From Tautonia marina (GTDB taxonomy: Bacteria; Planctomycetota; Planctomycetia; Isosphaerales; Isosphaeraceae): a stretch of 64,000 bases of DNA. The notes under the pieces are model-generated. The model saw only the letters and a program-made list of their open reading frames with translations. It did not search any database and had not been told where the DNA came from. Position numbers and translations under genes: made by a program. The stretch covers positions 62,001 through 126,000 of the forward strand of contig NZ_WEZF01000021.1 in assembly GCF_009177065.1 (NCBI RefSeq), written 5' to 3'. Below, piece by piece: positions 37,545 to 48,702 of this stretch; the first letter of the stretch is position 1; every line of letters starts with the position of its first letter.

Positions 37545-37886
37545 GTGGCATGAGCGGGTTTTTGAGGACGGTGACGGGGTCGCGTGCAGCGATCCCACGG
37601 TTCCTGGCGGGTTTAACTGGCAGAAGGCTCCGGGAGTGCATAAACTGGTGCCATAATGGCTCGACAGCCACGACCATCCCCGGACGAGCATCGTTCGTGC
37701 GTCATGCCATGCGTTCCTGATCGACCTGCGGGTCGACGACCTCGGAACGCGTACTGACGGGTTCTGGTAAAGAGGCATCCGTTTGCCTCAGCTCGAATCC
37801 GTGGGGATGCTTTTGTGTGGCGGTCGTCCTCCCGGCCGTTGAGGCCCGGAGCATTTCGCGTCGGAATTTCCTGGAGCCGAGCCGAG

Positions 37887-39038
37887 ATGAGTAGCGCGTC
37901 GGAGGACAACTTTTTCCCCGGTCTTGAAGGTGTGGTCTCCAACGAGACGGCCATTGCCGACATGCAAGGAACGGAAGGTCAGGGCGGCCTGGCCTACCGG
38001 GGATACGCGATCGAGGATCTCGCCGAGAAGGTTTCGTACGAAGAAGCGGCCTTCCTGCTGCTTCACGGCGACTTGCCAACCCAGTCGCAGCTCGACGAGT
38101 TCAACGGTCGGCTCCGGGCCTCCCGGTCGATTCCCGACTCGCTCGTCTCGCTGTTCCGAGCCGTGCCGAGCAACGTTCACCCGATGGACACCCTACGGAC
38201 GGGCGTCAGCGTTCTGGCCCACTACGATCAGGACGTGAACGCCGATCCCAAGGATCACGACGCCAACGTTCGCAAGGCCGAGCGGCTGATCGCCCAGATG
38301 GCCACCGCCGTGGCCGCCGCCGCTCGGATTGCCCGAGGTCAGGACCCGATCGCTCCTCGGGCCGACCTGAGCCACGCCGCCAACTTCCTCTACATGCTCA
38401 ACGGCAGCGAACCGAGCCCGGCCGAGACCGACGCGTTCGACCTCTCGCTGACGCTCTACGCCGAGCACGAGCTGAACGCCTCGACCTTCGCCGCCCGCGT
38501 GACCGCCTCGACCCTCTCCGACATTCACTCGGCAATTGTCTCGGCCGTCGGCACCCTGAAAGGTGCCCTGCACGGTGGGGCCAACGAGCGATCGTGGGAA
38601 GTGCTCGAACGGGTTGGCGCTCCCGATCACGCCGAGCAGTGGATCAAGGACGCCCTGGCCCGCAAGGAACGGATCATGGGCTTCGGCCACCGCGTCTACA
38701 AGACCGGCGACCCCCGCGCCGTGATCCTCAAACGGCACTGCCAGCTCGTCGCCAAGGAGATCGGCGATGATCGCTGGGAACGCACCGCCGAGCCGATCGA
38801 GCGCGCCGTGACCGAGCAAAAAGGCTTGCCCCCGAACGTCGACTGGCCCAGCGCTCGCCTGTACCACTACCTGAAGATCGAGGTGCCGATCTACACCCCC
38901 ATCTTCGCCATGGCTCGCGTCGCCGGCTGGGCCGCCCACGTCATTGAACAGCTCGACAGCAACCGCCTGATGCGTCCGAGGGCCCGCTACGTCGGCGCCC
39001 CGCAGCGATCGGTCAAGCCCATCACCGAGCGCGGTTGA
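37887..39038 (+). CDS. Citrate synthase
   Basis: A 383-residue type II-like short citrate synthase, condensing acetyl-CoA with oxaloacetate in the TCA cycle. Catalytic residues are visible: His229 (LHGGANE), His268 (GFGHRVYK) and Asp319 (NVDW). The C-terminus FAMARVAGWAAHVIEQL..NRLMRPRARYVG is typical of the CitZ/GltA class. The motif around the Asp reads NVDWPSARLY instead of the usual NVDFYSASVY, so a 2-methylcitrate synthase side activity is possible. The start at 37887 was chosen from family N-termini. It stands alone, facing the giant membrane protein gene, with a hairpin between them. Confidence 0.93.
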   Translation: MSSASEDNFFPGLEGVVSNETAIADMQGTEGQGGLAYRGYAIEDLAEKVSYEEAAFLLLHGDLPTQSQLDEFNGRLRASRSIPDSLVSLFRAVPSNVHPMDTLRTGVSVLAHYDQDVNADPKDHDANVRKAERLIAQMATAVAAAARIARGQDPIAPRADLSHAANFLYMLNGSEPSPAETDAFDLSLTLYAEHELNASTFAARVTASTLSDIHSAIVSAVGTLKGALHGGANERSWEVLERVGAPDHAEQWIKDALARKERIMGFGHRVYKTGDPRAVILKRHCQLVAKEIGDDRWERTAEPIERAVTEQKGLPPNVDWPSARLYHYLKIEVPIYTPIFAMARVAGWAAHVIEQLDSNRLMRPRARYVGAPQRSVKPITERG

Positions 39039-39063: not shown

Positions 39064-39099
39064 GATGTCTGGGGTCAGAATGACATGACCCCAGACATC
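39064..39099. terminator. Perfect 14-bp hairpin between convergent genes
   Basis: GATGTCTGGGGTCA (39064-39077) pairs perfectly with TGACCCCAGACATC (39086-39099), which also spans the stop codon of the minus-strand gene. It is probably a bidirectional terminator, though no T-run follows. Confidence 0.65.
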
Positions 39100-42000
39100 A
39101 GCCTGCCGACGCTTCTTCGAGCAATTCCGGCTCTGCGAACGGCAGGTCGACAACCTGCGATACCGGCGAGAGCCGGTCGTAGCCACCGAGGTTCCAGACC
39201 AGCTCGGTGTAGTGCTGCACGTCGAGCATGGTCAGGGTCTGAACCGCCCGGAGCGTCAGAATCTGGTCGCTCCAGAGATCGGTTCGAAGCATCACCTCGA
39301 TGAATCGGGTCCGAAGCGTTTCGATCGGGTCCGGCCCTCCCTGGCCCCGGATCACCCGGACCCATGCGCGCACCGCGCGTCGGTGCCGTCGCAGGTACGC
39401 CGTGATCCGAAGACGTTGATCGGTCTCGTACTTCGGGAAACAGGGCAATTCGAGCAGGTCGTCCATCGGTCGTCGGACATCCTGGAGCCGATGCCAGAGC
39501 GGCTCACTCAAGTTCGGAGTCTCGGGCAAGCCCTCGGGAAGCTGACGGGGATCGGCCTTGGGATCGGCGGCATGGGCCACGACCCTCCGCATGGCCAGAA
39601 CGGCCAGACCGAGCGTGGAGACGTCGTCGTGGTCAGCCACCCAGGCGGTGACAAGAGCCCGGATTACCTCGCCTCGGCGGTCGGTCAGATGAGGTAGGTC
39701 CCGTTCGAGCAGTTGGAGGAGATGCTCGAAGTTCCAGTCAAACTCGGCCAGCAACTGGTTGAGCCAATCGACCCGACTGCGCTGCCGGTTGCGAAACCGC
39801 TCGGCCATGACCCGCTCATGGCGAGAGGCCCCGATGAAGTCGAGGTCAATCTCCATCAAGGAATCGCTCCCGACACTGATGGGGACCTGCGGCAGCGGCA
39901 GCCCCAGATACTCGACATCGAACCGCGCCCGCATCCAGAGCGCTTCGAGAAACGCCGGCTTGCGCATCCGGTGAATCTTCCGAACGGCCGCCTGATACGA
40001 TTCGCCCGGCTCGTCGGGAGTGGTCGAGACGGTCGGGTTGAGGATCTCCCGAATCACCTTCACGATCCGAACGGCCATGTAGCCGACCCCTCGGAACCCC
40101 CACCAGATCAGGCGAAAGGGCAGGATCAGCAGGCGACCGCCGGCCAGATACGACTCGTAGAGATGGAAGAGGTTGATGGTTCGCTGCGAGATCGGAGCGC
40201 GGTGCAGCGGCAGGCTCCGAAACGCGCTTCGGAGGTTCCGCTCACGGTCGCTCTGAAGTAACGAGGCCACGGCATCTCCGTAGCGGGCTCGGATCAGCTC
40301 GTCTCGCTCCGGATCAGCAATCAAGAAATCGACCGCCGTGAAATCGACGGTTTCGAAGAATTCGTCCGCCTCCGGCCGTCTTCGGCTCGGGGCGAGTCGT
40401 TCCACGAGCGGAATGCGGCCCTTCGGCTCCGGCAAGAGAATCTCATCTTCCTCCTGGTGCAGCCGAGCGGCCAGCCACTTCCGGTAGCGCTTGCGAACCC
40501 CCTCGGGACTGCTGGCCAGTCGGTCGAGCGGCACAGCATTGCGGTTGTAGTCGATCAGGAGCTTGGCCGTCTCCTGCACGATCATCCGCGTGATGTAATC
40601 GAACCAGAGGTACGGCCCCCCGAGCAAGCTCGCCGTCGCCCGACTCATATCCAGCCGATCGAGCCGCCGACGCCCCCTGATGAAGTACGGCAGATTGCTC
40701 AGGCTCAGGTTTCGCAGCGCCAGGTTGCCGAGGAGCTGGGTCGACGCCTTCGTGTCGTTCCGGTGAAACGGAGAACCGTCAAGGTAATCCTGATACAAGA
40801 GCTTGAGCGTCGAAAAGAAGTCCGTTTCCGAAGGCTTCAGCCCCAGATTCTGGATTTGACCATCGAGCGTCCACGACTCGTGGGCACGCTCAAACCCGGA
40901 CAGACCGAGCGCCCCCTGCTCAACGTCGGCCGTCACGTCGTCGGAGGTTCGCAGCCGGATCTCAGGAAGGATGACCCGCTCATCCAGAAATCGCTGATCG
41001 CGTTCCTTGAGTTGCCGCTTGAGCAGCTTTGTCTGGGCGGCAAACTGAGCCTCGACGACCCGTTCGCAAAACTCGGCCGCCTGGTTGGCGATCTTGCGGA
41101 ACCAGCCTCCCAGTTGCATCAACACGAAGCAAATCACGCCGATGACGATGACCGGCAAGCCGAGCTTGTCGGCAAACCATCCCAGCATCGCCCGCAGCCG
41201 CAGTCCGAACCCGTGCAGCAGACCGACCTCTCGGGTCGCCTCTGCGGCCGATCCGGCCACCACCTCACCCGCGTCGCTGGGAACCAGGAGGTAAACCAGA
41301 GCATACAGGGCCGCGAAGGTCAGGCCGAAGCTCAGCAGGCGAATGGCCGGGCGCTTCGTGGCAGAGATGATCGTCCGTCCCAGCTTGTCGAGAAAGAGGG
41401 GGGGAGAAACCGTTGCCTGCAAATCGGCCACGTAGTAGATCACGTCGAGCGTGCGCTGCATGAGATGGCCGAGATAGTTGGCCGCCAGCGCGACGGCCTC
41501 GGCCGAGCCTTGCTTGCGATGTTCGAGGACCGGACGGATGATCGGCAAGCGACGGATCACCGGCAAATCGAGCAGTTGCAGATAATGATCGACCGAGTTG
41601 ACGAAGCTTTGCCCCATCTGCTCGATCAGCTCCTCGGGGGTCAACTCGATGAGCCGCTCGACAACCTCCTCGATCGGAATGTCTCGCGTCTGGTCGTCCA
41701 CGCGTTCCGACCAGTCGGCCGAGGGAATCTCGGCCACCCGAGCTTCCAGATCCTCGATTGCGGCATCGGTCAACCCGAGTCGATCGGCCTCATCCAACGT
41801 GTTGAGATGCTCCGGGGCCCGTCGGTCGTAATGACGCCGGATCACATGGAGCAAATGGTGATTGCGCGAGTCTTCGCAGATTTCCGGCTTCAACTCAAAC
41901 AAGATGATGTTTCGGTTGAAGATCCGAGCATAACGCCGCACCAGGCGATCGGTGAAGCGGAGGGCGAAGATGACAAGGCGAACAAACCGAATCAGCGGCC

Positions 42001-43618
42001 GCATCACCCGCAGGAATCGCAGCAATCGGGGAACTCGGAGCAACCGGAGGATCTGAATGTTGGCAATCAGTGTCGGCCCCGACAGGGCAAAGGTAATGAA
42101 CCCAAACGGAATCGACGGCAACAGGTCGATCACGAAATGCCGGGCCAGATACCTCAGCCGCCCCGTGACCAGTGCGATCTTCAAGGCAAATTCCGAGAGA
42201 AAGACCGCGCAGATTGCCAGGTCGGCCCAGGCAAACACAGCTTCGAGCCGGTGAGTCATCCGTCCCGACTGGTCGATGGCCGTCTCCACAACGAGCAAGC
42301 CCGTCAGGAGCAAGATCAACACCAGGATGACCGCATCGAGCCGCTTGGGGAACCTGGGTCCGAATTTCGACTGCATCCGGGCGGTCAGGTCTTTTTCCTG
42401 CCACTCGTTGCGAGCGGTGCGGGCCATCCGGCCGAAGCGCCGAGCCACCCGGCGCAGGTGGCCGATCGCCGGAGGATCGAGCCCTTCCGCGGCCCCGTCG
42501 TGCCCTGCGGCCAGGCAATCGTCTCGCAACCGGAGCATGTCTTCCCGAGAGAGGCTCAGCAGCCGGCCGCCCTGCGCCGAGTCCACCTCCTCAAGCATCG
42601 AGAGGATTTCGTTCGCCTCCTCCCGAGCATCCGACAACAGCTCATCCCAGGCGGTCAATCTCGCTTCGGGAGAGAGACGATTCAGCTGCTCGACCGCCGA
42701 GACGGCCAGTGCCTCACGACGTTCCACCAGGGCGGCGACGTGGCGTCCCGGTCCAGGAACACGCTGATCCGCCTCCTCGGATGCGTCGGCAGACGGCGGC
42801 ATGGGAATGGTGTCGGGCAGGCCCTCGACTTCCGCCTGAAGCCGGGAGAGCAAGAACCGCCGCGACCAGAGTTCCTCGGCCGTTCCTTCGGAAACGGTCC
42901 CTTCGAGTAACTGGCTGACTCGGCGATCGAGGAGCGACAGCCGCAGCCGGCTCGCTCGATGCTCAAGCTGCCGACGGATCGGGTCGAGTGAGGGGGTCCC
43001 TTCGGCTCGGAGCTGATCGTTCAAGCGATCCAGCTCGATGACCGCCGAGACGGCCGGATGCACCGGCACGTTGCCATCAACCAGCGCGACCAACTCGGAG
43101 AGCCAGGTCAGGTCTCTCCGGAATCGGTCGAGCAGGGCGGCGCGGCGGATCGGTTCCAGATCGGGGCGAGTGAGCAACTCAGACAGATAGGCTTGCTCGG
43201 CTCGGAGCCACTTCGCGGTTTGCGTCGAGAGTTTCGGATCGGGCCCCGACCCGGCGCGCAACACGTCCGCCAAACGATCCGTTGTGGTATCTCGAAGCTG
43301 TTCCAGCAGCGCATCGACTTCAAGATCGCGGGGATGGATCGGGTCGGTGGCCAGCTCGTGGAGAATCCTGCGGAGCCGGGTGCCTTCCTGAATCGACTTG
43401 AGCAAGCGCGACGGCGAAACCTGTCCGTTGCCTGAAATGACCTCAGAGGTCCGAGCGAGCCACGAATTCCGCCACTGAATCGGATCACTCAACGTTCTAC
43501 TCCCCGAGGCAACCGGCGCCGACGTTCCAGAATCGCCGGGCGAGACCTGGTCATTGTCCTTTGATCTCAGATCAGGGTAAACCCCTCGAACCCTTCGATC
43601 GATGTCGCCGGGCGACAC
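39098..43618 (-). CDS. Giant membrane protein with voltage-sensor domain, 1506 aa
   Basis: Residues 1-425 are charged and helical. Residues 428-550 form a voltage-sensor domain: S1 (428-447), S2 with the FLSEFALK motif (473-480), S3 with Asp498 in FVIDLLPSIPFGF, and S4 with Arg at 525, 528, 531, 534, 537, 540, 544 and 547. After a soluble stretch of about 200 residues come two more hydrophobic segments (about 759-779 and 821-838), then about 650 mostly soluble residues with another weak hydrophobic patch (LLILPFRLIWWGFRGVGYMA). No K+ filter (TxGYG/TxGFG) or cation-channel pore motif was found. It starts with GTG; a later in-frame GTG at 43546 is an alternative. Function is unknown: a voltage-sensing channel or regulator is inference. 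Confidence 0.85.
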   Translation of the reverse strand: MSPGDIDRRVRGVYPDLRSKDNDQVSPGDSGTSAPVASGSRTLSDPIQWRNSWLARTSEVISGNGQVSPSRLLKSIQEGTRLRRILHELATDPIHPRDLEVDALLEQLRDTTTDRLADVLRAGSGPDPKLSTQTAKWLRAEQAYLSELLTRPDLEPIRRAALLDRFRRDLTWLSELVALVDGNVPVHPAVSAVIELDRLNDQLRAEGTPSLDPIRRQLEHRASRLRLSLLDRRVSQLLEGTVSEGTAEELWSRRFLLSRLQAEVEGLPDTIPMPPSADASEEADQRVPGPGRHVAALVERREALAVSAVEQLNRLSPEARLTAWDELLSDAREEANEILSMLEEVDSAQGGRLLSLSREDMLRLRDDCLAAGHDGAAEGLDPPAIGHLRRVARRFGRMARTARNEWQEKDLTARMQSKFGPRFPKRLDAVILVLILLLTGLLVVETAIDQSGRMTHRLEAVFAWADLAICAVFLSEFALKIALVTGRLRYLARHFVIDLLPSIPFGFITFALSGPTLIANIQILRLLRVPRLLRFLRVMRPLIRFVRLVIFALRFTDRLVRRYARIFNRNIILFELKPEICEDSRNHHLLHVIRRHYDRRAPEHLNTLDEADRLGLTDAAIEDLEARVAEIPSADWSERVDDQTRDIPIEEVVERLIELTPEELIEQMGQSFVNSVDHYLQLLDLPVIRRLPIIRPVLEHRKQGSAEAVALAANYLGHLMQRTLDVIYYVADLQATVSPPLFLDKLGRTIISATKRPAIRLLSFGLTFAALYALVYLLVPSDAGEVVAGSAAEATREVGLLHGFGLRLRAMLGWFADKLGLPVIVIGVICFVLMQLGGWFRKIANQAAEFCERVVEAQFAAQTKLLKRQLKERDQRFLDERVILPEIRLRTSDDVTADVEQGALGLSGFERAHESWTLDGQIQNLGLKPSETDFFSTLKLLYQDYLDGSPFHRNDTKASTQLLGNLALRNLSLSNLPYFIRGRRRLDRLDMSRATASLLGGPYLWFDYITRMIVQETAKLLIDYNRNAVPLDRLASSPEGVRKRYRKWLAARLHQEEDEILLPEPKGRIPLVERLAPSRRRPEADEFFETVDFTAVDFLIADPERDELIRARYGDAVASLLQSDRERNLRSAFRSLPLHRAPISQRTINLFHLYESYLAGGRLLILPFRLIWWGFRGVGYMAVRIVKVIREILNPTVSTTPDEPGESYQAAVRKIHRMRKPAFLEALWMRARFDVEYLGLPLPQVPISVGSDSLMEIDLDFIGASRHERVMAERFRNRQRSRVDWLNQLLAEFDWNFEHLLQLLERDLPHLTDRRGEVIRALVTAWVADHDDVSTLGLAVLAMRRVVAHAADPKADPRQLPEGLPETPNLSEPLWHRLQDVRRPMDDLLELPCFPKYETDQRLRITAYLRRHRRAVRAWVRVIRGQGGPDPIETLRTRFIEVMLRTDLWSDQILTLRAVQTLTMLDVQHYTELVWNLGGYDRLSPVSQVVDLPFAEPELLEEASAG

Positions 43619-43735
43619 CCCGGACTCAAGCTCTGCTTGTTCCCCAGGCTGGGAACGACTAGCCTAGTCGAGCGGAGCCGAGCGTCCCCCGACCCTGTCC
43701 CGTTTCTCGATTCATCTGTGAGGATTCTTCGCGTC

Positions 43736-44713
43736 GTGAGCCATCCTTTTGAACACGAACGAGCGGTCGCCGCCCAGGCCGTTCAGGAAGCCGCCCGGCT
43801 CTGCCGCGCGGTCCGTGGATCACACGGCCCCGATCCCGTCGCCAAGGGGGACAAAAGCCCCGTCACCGTTGCCGATTTCGGCAGCCAGGCGCTCATCTGC
43901 GCGACCCTCAAGGCCGCCTTCCCGGACGATCCGGTGATGGCCGAGGAAGATGCCGCCGAGCTGCGATCGCCCGACCGCGCCGCCGTCCGAGACCGCGTCG
44001 TGGCCGAGGTCAACGCCCTGCGCCCTGGTTCCGACGCCGAAACGGTTCTCGGCTGGATCGATCATGGCAATCTCAACCGCTTCGCCCCTCGCTTCTGGAC
44101 GCTCGATCCGATCGACGGCACCAAAGGCTTTCTCCGAGGAGAACAGTACGCCATCGCCCTGGCCCTGATCGTCGACGGCCGCATCGAAGTGGCCGCCCTG
44201 GCCTGTCCGAACCTGGAACAATCACGATCGACGGTCGGCCCGGTCGGCGCGGTCTTCCTGGCGGTTCGGGGAGCAGGGGCCACCGTGATCCCGCTTGATG
44301 GGGGCGACCAGGAACGCGCGATCCAGACCTCGGATCGAACCGATCCCTCCCGCGCCCGCCTCTGTGAATCGGTCGAATCGGGCCATAGCGCTCATAATGA
44401 ATCGGCCGTCGTGGCGGCTCGCCTCGGGGTCACCGAGCCTCCCGTCCGGCTCGACAGCCAGGCCAAGTACGCCACCGTCGCCTCCGGCGAGGCTGATGTC
44501 TACCTTCGCCTGCCGACCCGCGCTGACTATCAGGAAAAAATCTGGGACCACGCCGCCGGTGCCCTCATCGTGACCGAGGCCGGCGGCACCGTGACCGACA
44601 TCGACGGCAAACCGCTCGATTTTACCCTCGGCTCGACCCTGGCGAACAATCGCGGTGTCGTCGCCACCAACGGCCCCTTGCACGATCGGGTCCTGGCCGC
44701 CCTGCGCGGGTGA
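43736..44713 (+). CDS. 3'(2'),5'-bisphosphate nucleotidase (CysQ/HAL2-like inositol monophosphatase family)
   Basis: A 325-residue Mg-dependent phosphatase. The metal-binding residues are visible: Glu/Asp in MAEEDA (70-72), Asp124 and Asp127 in WTLDPIDGTKGF, and a later Asp in KIWDHAAGALIVTEAGG. The DPIDGTKGFLRGEQYA form is characteristic of the PAP phosphatase branch, which removes the 3'-phosphate of PAP formed in sulfate assimilation or sulfotransfer. The start is uncertain: GTG at 43736 gives the family N-terminus and has AGGA 11-14 bases upstream; GTG at 43718 is an alternative. It is divergent from the giant membrane protein gene, and a sulfatase gene follows 124 bases later. Confidence 0.9.
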   Translation: MSHPFEHERAVAAQAVQEAARLCRAVRGSHGPDPVAKGDKSPVTVADFGSQALICATLKAAFPDDPVMAEEDAAELRSPDRAAVRDRVVAEVNALRPGSDAETVLGWIDHGNLNRFAPRFWTLDPIDGTKGFLRGEQYAIALALIVDGRIEVAALACPNLEQSRSTVGPVGAVFLAVRGAGATVIPLDGGDQERAIQTSDRTDPSRARLCESVESGHSAHNESAVVAARLGVTEPPVRLDSQAKYATVASGEADVYLRLPTRADYQEKIWDHAAGALIVTEAGGTVTDIDGKPLDFTLGSTLANNRGVVATNGPLHDRVLAALRG

Positions 44714-46318: not shown

Positions 46319-47305
46319 TCAGGAGCCCGTGTATCGAGGACGGGGCGGAAGGTGGCCGACCTTCGGCTCGATGTCGTCCTTCCAGTCTTCGAGCCGAGGC
46401 CCCTTCAGCGGCTCGGCGCGGGATCGCAGGGCGGCCATTTGCTCGTCGCCGAGCCGCTCCAGGGATTGAGCGATCCGGACGTCATCCTCAAGCTGGCCGA
46501 GCGTCGTGCAACCGACGGCCGTGCAGTGGATCGGCAGATTCAGGACGTAGCTCAGGCAGTCTCGCACGCTGAAGCGCTGCAACAGCTTCGCATTGGCGAA
46601 GTTCTTCATCCCCTGAATGCCCAGCCCTTGCTCGACGGCCAGGGGGAGCACTTGCTGCTCGAAGCTCAGATAATGCGGATCGGCGACGTGCAGGGGCATC
46701 AAGATCGTGTCCCAGCGGTCGAAGGTCCGGAGCATTGCCAGGTGCGCCGCCGGGTTGGTGTGACCGGTGAAGCCGATGAAGCGGCACTTTCCCGCCTTCT
46801 TGGCGGCCTCGAACGCCTCAATGGCCCCGCCGGGAGCGAAGACCTTCTCGACATCCTCCTCGTCCTGAATGCCGTGGACCTGCCAGAGATCGACGTAGTC
46901 GGTCTTCAAGCGTTTGAGCGAAAGATGCAGTTCCTCCTCGGCCCCTTTTTTCGTCCGGTTGGTGGACTTGGTGGTGAGGAAGACCTGATCGCGGCACGCG
47001 GGCAAGACCTCGCCGAAGATTTCTTCCGAGTGGCCGTCCCAGTAGTTGTGTGCCGTATCGAAGTAGTTGATCCCCAGTTCCACGGCCCGACGGGTCAGCG
47101 CGATGGCCTCCTCATCGTTGCCGATCACCGGAAACCGGCCGCTGGCCAGGCCGATGATGGTCAGATCGACCCCGGTCTTGCCGAAGGTCCGCTTCGGGAT
47201 TGCGCCGGGTTCGTCCGAGCGCATCGGGCGAGCCCCGATGGCCCGACTCCCGATCCCGGTGGCCAGGCCCCCGACCAGTCCGCCGATGAGCGTTCTGCGT
47301 TTCAT
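46319..47305 (-). CDS. Aldo/keto reductase, Tat-exported
   Basis: A 328-residue oxidoreductase with an N-terminal MKRRTLIGGLVGGLATG signal (Tat-like, RR). The aldo/keto reductase tetrad is visible: Asp and Tyr in YFDTAHNYWDG, Lys in FLTTKST, and His in LWQVHGIQ. The NADPH-binding C-terminal loop region is present (AVGCTTLGQLEDDVRIA). It is preceded by GGAGGATCGGACG, a good ribosome binding site. It lies downstream of another exported aldo/keto reductase on the same strand, separated by 161 bases. Tat export with a bound cofactor would explain a periplasmic location. The substrate is unknown. Confidence 0.9.
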   Translation of the reverse strand: MKRRTLIGGLVGGLATGIGSRAIGARPMRSDEPGAIPKRTFGKTGVDLTIIGLASGRFPVIGNDEEAIALTRRAVELGINYFDTAHNYWDGHSEEIFGEVLPACRDQVFLTTKSTNRTKKGAEEELHLSLKRLKTDYVDLWQVHGIQDEEDVEKVFAPGGAIEAFEAAKKAGKCRFIGFTGHTNPAAHLAMLRTFDRWDTILMPLHVADPHYLSFEQQVLPLAVEQGLGIQGMKNFANAKLLQRFSVRDCLSYVLNLPIHCTAVGCTTLGQLEDDVRIAQSLERLGDEQMAALRSRAEPLKGPRLEDWKDDIEPKVGHLPPRPRYTGS

Positions 47306-47466
47306 CGTCCGATCCTCCGGTGGGATGGGATGTCAGGAAGCGATGCGCGAGCCGCGATCGGCGCGCATCGGGCAGGCAGACGGCCGGGGATTCGACCGCC
47401 CACGCGTTCGCCGGGACCCCCAACGCCCTCGCGTCGGGGTTCCCGATGGGCAAAACCCAGACGGCC

Positions 47467-48702
47467 TCAGCTCAGGTGCGTGTTGGCCAGTTGAACCAGG
47501 TTGGCCACGGGCAAGCCGTGCGGGCAGGCCCGTTCGGCGGCGGCGAGGTCGGCCTTGGCCAGATCACGAGCCTCAGCGGGTAGGGCCTGATAGAGCGCCC
47601 GAGCCTCAGACCGCTTGCCGTAGGCGGCGTAATAGCGCAGATAGCGCAAGACGGTGGCGACCGGAACTCCCCTCGCGGCGGTTTCGCAGAGGTGGCCGCA
47701 CCCGTGGCAGTAAAGATTGGCCGTCTTCTGCCGGTGTTCTTCCAGCAGGCGGGCCTCCTCGATCGTCAAGGGCTCTCGGCTGGCGGCGACGTTCTCGCGG
47801 AGGTCGCTGAAGTTCGTCATCTCCGAGACAACCACCTGCATCCGGTCGTCGTACCAGACGGATTTGACCGCGGCGACCTCCTTCTTGACCCCCGCCTCTC
47901 GCAGTCGCTTCAGCGCCTGGTCGATGTCGAACAGCTTGCCGTCGTTGTCAATCGCATCGACGACCGCGTCGGCCCCGCGCTGGGTCTTCATGGCGACGAG
48001 GCCGATGTTGGCCTTTGAAGCCTTGTCGATGGCCCGCTGCAGCTTGTCGTGATCGACGGCTCGGAAGCTGTACTGGATCATCACCTGATCGATCCAGCCG
48101 ACCTCGGCCGCTTTTTCGAGGATCTCGGGGAGCATGGCATCGTGGCAGGAAAGCCCGGCAAAGCGGATCTTGCCGGCGGCTTTCAGATTCTCGAAGGTCG
48201 CCTTGATGCTCGGGTCGGAAAGCATGCCGATGTCCCGGCCCGCGATGCCGTGGATGTAGTAGGCATCGACGTAGTCGGTTCGCAGGCGTTCGAGGCTCTT
48301 TTCCAGCTCGCTCGGAAACACGGCGGCCTGGTCGGGCACGCCTCGGTAGCGGGTCGTCTTGGTGACGAGGTAGGTGTCCTTCCGCAGGCCCGTGCGTTCG
48401 AGGACCTGGCCGAGAACCTGTTCGGTCCTGGTGTTCTCGTACGACTCGGAGGTGTCGATGAAGCGAACCCCCGAGAGCAAGGCCGCCTGCACGAAGCTCG
48501 GCGACACGGCCCAGCTCGTCCCCATCCCCAGCTTCGTCACCTTCTGGCCGGTCTTGCCGAGCGTCACGAGCGGGACCTTCGGTTCATCGGCGGCCGCGTC
48601 CTGGCCGAAGCTTCGCAGGGCCGGTGCCGATGCCAGGGCCGCTCCCGTCGCCGCGCTGGTCTTCAGGAACCGTCTCCGGCTGCCGTCGCAGGTTCCGTGC
48701 AT
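47467..48702 (-). CDS. Aldo/keto reductase with C-terminal cysteine-rich (ferredoxin-like) region, Tat-exported
   Basis: A 411-residue protein with a Tat signal (SRRRFLKTSAATGAALASAPA). The aldo/keto reductase core has FIDTSESYENTRTE (Asp, Tyr), LVTKTTRY (Lys) and YYIHGI (His). The C-terminal 80 residues hold CHGCGHLC and, about 50 residues later, CPHGLPV. This spacing recalls the iron-sulfur tail of some bacterial aldo/keto reductases, although the usual CxxCxxC pattern is altered (CxxCxxxC). A palindrome at 48806-48823 lies about 100 bases upstream of the start. The substrate is unknown. Confidence 0.88.
   Translation of the reverse strand: MHGTCDGSRRRFLKTSAATGAALASAPALRSFGQDAAADEPKVPLVTLGKTGQKVTKLGMGTSWAVSPSFVQAALLSGVRFIDTSESYENTRTEQVLGQVLERTGLRKDTYLVTKTTRYRGVPDQAAVFPSELEKSLERLRTDYVDAYYIHGIAGRDIGMLSDPSIKATFENLKAAGKIRFAGLSCHDAMLPEILEKAAEVGWIDQVMIQYSFRAVDHDKLQRAIDKASKANIGLVAMKTQRGADAVVDAIDNDGKLFDIDQALKRLREAGVKKEVAAVKSVWYDDRMQVVVSEMTNFSDLRENVAASREPLTIEEARLLEEHRQKTANLYCHGCGHLCETAARGVPVATVLRYLRYYAAYGKRSEARALYQALPAEARDLAKADLAAAERACPHGLPVANLVQLANTHLS

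Follow-up and report, generated by a model that had tools for sequence, protein, structure and literature searches.

According to the accessible part of PMC13095418, voltage sensors outside channels are found in VSP, Hv1, TMEM266 and SLC9C1, and the last two are described there as animal proteins. HV channels, in the available text of PMC10377628, are recognised by an acidic residue in S1 together with the motif RxWRxxR in S4. In a mainly open literature that was covered in part, no description of a planctomycete voltage sensor, or of a bacterial pore-less one, was found.

The Tautonia marina protein considered here, referred to as the sensor protein, resembles the Kv channels (PF00520, Ion_trans) in its S1-S4, in the S4 arginines at a spacing of three, in the S2 pattern Phe-x-x-Glu and in the S3 Asp, and profile matches relate it to Kv3.1 and to planctomycete Kv channels, including that of its own genome (L001); unlike them, it continues after S4 with a domain of about 200 residues, two other helices and a module of about 650 residues. 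Its likeness to VSP, insofar as the latter is described in the text at hand of PMC13095418, is one of logic only, a sensor being joined to a cytoplasmic part rather than to a pore; it differs by its extra helices and by having no phosphatase family. With Hv1 it shares a sensor that lacks a pore domain. With SLC9C1 and TMEM266, again on the portion of PMC13095418 consulted, it shares a voltage sensor located outside a channel; conversely, neither a Na+/H+ exchanger nor a cyclic-nucleotide-binding domain was found in it by Pfam at E values up to 10. The first-pass annotation had proposed a new class of voltage-responsive protein: this is fair for the protein family, of which the libraries describe the sensor alone, and does not hold for pore-less sensors as such, already known from the four proteins above.

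Gene, neighbourhood and distribution

The window (the whole stretch of DNA that was analysed, 64,000 nucleotides) contains the sensor gene at 39098-43618 on the minus strand, with a GTG start and a TGA stop, encoding 1506 residues; GC content by codon position is 0.69, 0.43 and 0.77. An open frame of 817 codons lies antisense to it (40457-42910, plus strand) and was attributed to the high GC content, the minus strand being preferred by both conservation and dN/dS. In the single pair compared, with the nearest relative L060, the sensor protein is under purifying selection: by the Nei-Gojobori method the whole gene has a dN of 0.080 and a dS of 0.681, a ratio of about 0.12. Among five parts in this one pair, dN is highest for the N-terminus (residues 20-415; dN 0.141, dS 0.655), then decreases through the C-terminal module (0.067 and 0.688), the linker (0.056 and 0.732) and the hairpin (0.049 and 0.609) to the voltage sensor, which has the lowest value (0.038 and 0.743). 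The N-terminal 412 residues (42383-43618, minus strand) are poorly conserved except just ahead of S1.

A conserved partner gene was not found: across 57 loci of unequal length and the window, the most widely recurring flanking family is present in 6. An Inositol monophosphatase-family gene (43637-44713, plus strand) is divergent from the sensor gene, and no signalling role was built on it because among the compared loci it recurs in L060 alone. Beyond the 3' end lies a convergent citrate synthase gene (37815-39038, plus strand), and two adjacent aldo/keto reductase genes occupy 46319-48702 (minus strand), one of which may carry a TAT signal that scores under the Pfam cut-off. In three related genomes (L079, L082, L103) genes for a type II secretion ATPase (T2SSE) and of the secretin group, assigned by scanning one member per group, are placed just upstream on the same strand. 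This adjacency may reflect chance synteny or a connection with the envelope; being limited to three loci and not general, it was not used.

The distribution over Planctomycetota, proposed as a check in the first-pass annotation, is wide: by our own count the sensor-bearing family is present in at least 57 of 392 genomes, own genome included, and in 26 family codes, these genome counts being lower bounds because full scoring was limited to a few candidates in each genome. Of the 88 matches, the remaining 31 fall within residues 383-582 and most probably represent ordinary Kv channels. The sensor-bearing family was found in 16 of the 37 genomes of its own family code (f1), in all three of f4 and in none of the other 19 genomes sampled in the class, three sensor-alone matches being excluded there. 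A single-protein search among close relatives gave one locus, in Tautonia sociabilis GM2012, and plasmid records gave no match. The C-terminal module is so far known from Planctomycetota, the phylum covered by the profile search.

A Kv-type voltage sensor predicted from the family alignment

The elements named by the first-pass annotation are found where they were claimed: the S2 motif FLSEFALK corresponds to residues 473-480, Asp498 is located in S3, and S4 contains eight arginines at 525, 528, 531, 534, 537, 540, 544 and 547, six of them at spacing three. Pfam, in the search of the sensor region that had also been suggested, reports Ion_trans at residues 428-550 (41969-42337, minus strand) with 33.1 bits against a cut-off of 25; the match covers profile positions 5-123 of 241, the half that corresponds to S1-S4, and no other family appears anywhere in the protein at E values up to 10. 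Shuffling the sequence 20,000 times produced a run of six arginines at spacing three in 58 cases; since the protein is rich in arginine, the single-protein run is just moderately striking, and it is the family alignment that makes the case.

This alignment consists of 58 rows, the window protein and one relative for each of 57 loci (L031, L006, L060-L114), taken from stop to stop (1047-1738 residues); at least one row (L081, 1047 residues) is cut N-terminally before position 403. By our own count matches extend past the sensor in 74 genomes, of which the rows represent 58, the other sixteen being outside the alignment for lack of a complete frame or of space (G032, G143, G180, G184, G198, G222, G228, G235, G238, G240, G241, G277, G282, G302, G329 and G367). 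In S4 (about 520-550; 41969-42061, minus strand), Arg or Lys is found at positions 522, 525, 528, 531, 534, 537 and 540 in 36, 49, 55, 39, 49, 47 and 33 rows, respectively, while from 521 to 542 no position in either of the other registers is basic in more than one row; the register then shifts at 544 and 547, which are basic in 47 and 58 rows. Residues D466, P504, R547 and D557 are invariant in all 58. In S2 (about 463-482; 42173-42232, minus strand), position 476 is always acidic (40 Glu, 18 Asp) and position 473 is Phe in 40 rows and Leu in 18, the Leu rows counting against the sensor reading; in S3 (about 494-512; 42083-42139, minus strand), position 498 is always acidic as well (50 Asp, 8 Glu).

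Searching PDB sequences with the family profile gave Kv3.1 (E 3.2e-7), then Nav1.5, Kv4, Kv2, hERG, HCN, Kv1 and others, and the best 60 of 200 matches all lie within profile positions 323-470, corresponding to the sensor. Against four planctomycete Kv channels (L001, L022-L024), profile comparison gave 96% with an alignment confined to S1-S4. In Kv channels, the Phe and Glu of S2 and the Asp of S3 form the charge-transfer centre, and their counterparts were read off the alignment of the family profile to solved channels. On these grounds the sensor protein is predicted to carry an S1-S4 voltage sensor with a charge-transfer centre, in agreement with the complete sensor proposed earlier.

Conservation also bears on a different explanation, namely that S1-S4 is a leftover or structural anchor of a captured channel gene that has lost sensing. 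Basic residues per S4 stretch have a median of 7 and a maximum of 10 over the 58 rows, and seven members retain just four or five (the minimum of four in L089, five in six others), a low charge that counts against sensing and in favour of a leftover. Such loss is nonetheless improbable, given that arginines in one register and their acidic partners are kept across the sampled family and that dN in the single pair compared is lowest for the sensor.

Some structural modelling was attempted. AlphaFold, run with two sequences, gave a pLDDT of 33 for residues 397-1506 and, for residues 400-575, a pLDDT of 55 and a pTM of 0.37, with long helices in the expected order in a model too weak for their packing to be judged. 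A Foldseek search of PDB with the latter weak model returned 13 matches, the best being SLC9C1 at E 2.5, and is not evidential.

Topology and the search for a pore

The two later helices noted in the first-pass annotation appear as hydropathy peaks at 764-779 and 817-836 throughout the family, with a weaker family-wide peak near 1166-1177. Mean loop charge is +2.9 before S1, -0.6 between S1 and S2, +3.7 between S2 and S3, -1.1 between S3 and S4, +2.7 after S4, +3.2 before the fifth helix, 0.0 in the hairpin loop and +0.7, a weak value, after the hairpin. Hydropathy and loop charge thus suggest six membrane helices with both ends inside. S4 is followed by a putative cytoplasmic linker domain (about residues 560-725; 41444-41941, minus strand), then by the ADL motif and the two-helix hairpin (730-850; 41069-41431, minus strand), whose helices lie at about 759-779 and 817-838 and show no P-loop signature.

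The earlier statement that no pore or K+ filter can be recognised was borne out. Neither the K+ nor the Nav selectivity-filter pattern occurs in any of the 58 rows; a bare GYG or GFG followed by Asp or Asn is found in three, always at 1310-1431, far from the hairpin. As a control, the ordinary Kv channel of the same genome (L001, G000:C8) has a full-length Ion_trans match and TTVGYG. An S5-P-S6 pore domain right after S4 was not found in the sensor protein, where the Ion_trans match stops at 123 of 241, and in residues 575-900 of 43 members Pfam detected no family of channel pores at E values up to 1. Scattered Pfam matches in this region and in the C-terminal regions of the same members, in at most 4 of 43 (TrbC, best E 0.012), were rejected, as were three PDB profile matches for residues 575-900, from E 0.22, taken as chance hits.

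A voltage-gated channel with a novel pore, in which the hairpin, perhaps together with the 1166-1177 stretch, would form a pore that has no P-loop, would account for the order of elements, which resembles S1-S4 followed by two helices with both ends inside, and for the near invariance of the second hairpin helix at G827 (58 of 58 rows), C830 (55) and G837 (54). Against it, R547 is separated from P757 by 207-243 residues in the 58 rows; the S4-S5 linker of Kv1-Kv9 is given as about 15 residues in the consulted text of PMC13095418. Moreover, the segment L761-G827, helices included, has a median length of 41 residues (range 23-66; 66 in the window protein), so that in most rows a pore helix and filter would have little space. 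Profile comparison with the four planctomycete Kv channels revealed no pore homology either, giving 0.2% for residues 576-860 and 0.05% for residues 841-1490. Together with the relatives described below, in which the same hairpin occurs in proteins that have no sensor, these results make a novel pore unlikely.

The sensor itself might instead conduct protons or cations in the manner of Hv1, the remainder of the protein being regulatory. A sensor with no detectable pore is indeed present, and the isolated Shaker sensor can conduct, as stated in the accessible part of PMC5092046. Conversely, an Asp or Glu in the middle of S1 (430-442 in the family's own numbering) is missing from all 58 rows, and the motif RxWRxxR, searched as R-x-W-[RK]-x-x-[RK], was found in the S4 region of one row, which is not the window protein; a conducting sensor is therefore considered very unlikely.

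Relatives that have no sensor

The profile A4, made from residues 900-1490, was run on 392 Planctomycetota genomes and matched 61, three of the matches being sensor-less and one a 50-residue fragment. Two weak matches are the short proteins L123 (520 residues; L123:1107-2669) and L124 (572 residues; L124:1672-3390), putative membrane proteins carrying the hairpin and the C-terminal module, with no sensor and no Pfam match at E values up to 10. When both were used for searching, matches were obtained in 22 of the 392 genomes: 18 are weak and all from genomes with the long form, and four have the short form, namely the two queries (G045 and G164), G268 (L128) and G284 (L129, an incomplete frame of 453 codons missing the C-terminal third). 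No long-form match was found in these four genomes of the phylum sample.

When the long family (400-1490) was compared by profile with the four short forms, the probability was 99.7% (E 6.1e-27) and the alignment ran collinearly from the ADL motif to near the end; the 58-row profile matched two short forms in pieces, with 69.6 and 35.9 bits. The hairpin alone is in register between long and short forms, with a weak score (7%, E 0.005); compared by profile with Kv pores, it shows no resemblance (0.2%). The hairpin therefore seems to be part of the C-terminal module and not an S5-S6 leftover, the latter being argued against because hairpin and module exist without the sensor. The same observation backs the idea, already present in the first-pass annotation, that a sensor is attached to a separate module, to which it adds that the two downstream helices would belong to a C-terminal module also found without a voltage sensor.

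In a quick tree of the module the four short forms fall on one side of a branch with an SH-aLRT of 100, on long branches, whose joins are often false. Since this tree has no outside root, gain and loss of the sensor are not distinguishable. A segment at residues 1138-1205 (40004-40207, minus strand), which includes N1149 and the GGRxxLLP stretch with P1167, is conserved in the long form and stands opposite an alignment gap in the short form; this suggests a possible element coupling sensor and module.

The C-terminal module

The C-terminal module, predicted to be cytoplasmic (841-1490; 39149-41098, minus strand), is conserved, with a mean column identity of 33% over 43 rows, and residues such as D1124, R1125, R1130, F1133, N1149, P1167, R1213, R1217, M1218, D1234, R1457 and G1478 are invariant in 52 rows. 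No catalytic pattern was recognised in it, so that either a scaffold or a new enzyme is conceivable for the module. The earlier remark that a phosphatase signature is missing agrees with the Pfam results, which contain no phosphatase family for the window protein or for 43 C-terminal regions. The pattern HCx5R, absent from the window protein, occurs in two of 58 rows (at residue 779 of L090 and 880 of L080), and the looser Cx5R[TS] in seven, at scattered places.

Nothing in Pfam, NCBIfam, PADLOC, PHROGs or PDB sequences matches the module convincingly. A designed diiron protein (E 0.0088) and two weaker matches in the PDB profile search with residues 900-1490 were regarded as chance hits, like two single-member NCBIfam matches among the 43 C-terminal regions; SRP19, reported by NCBIfam for the window protein with E 0.018 and 15 bits where the cut-off is 131, was rejected. 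PADLOC gave nothing for three proteins, and for the same three the PHROGs matches, phrog_7872 across the sensor (E 0.0037) and two others (E 0.25-0.3), were likewise set aside.

Proposed mode of action and significance

The sensor protein is probably a voltage-responsive membrane protein of six helices, in which a Kv-type sensor with no S5-P-S6 is followed by a linker, a two-helix anchor and a cytoplasmic module; the interpretation of the first-pass annotation is thus partly supported. A change in potential would move the arginine-bearing S4 past the acidic centre of S2 and S3. S4 runs on into the cytoplasmic linker domain of about 200 residues, which would carry this movement, and the two-helix hairpin would hold the module of about 650 residues at the membrane. 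In the manner of VSP, with a different effector, the displacement of S4 may then alter the position or the activity of the module, for which both a new enzyme and a signalling scaffold are candidates.

The chances are judged even that these proteins constitute a phylum-wide bacterial system in which membrane potential is converted to cytoplasmic activity through a new effector module and with no ion flow. The same balance applies to the evolutionary side of this voltage-signalling reading, by which a Kv-type sensor would have been added to a module anchored by two helices, or lost in a few lineages. The sensor-less relatives offer a natural control for the sensor-bearing family. If the reading is true, the family would represent a bacterial case in which voltage directly controls something other than a pore, and planctomycetes may convert membrane voltage to an intracellular signal.
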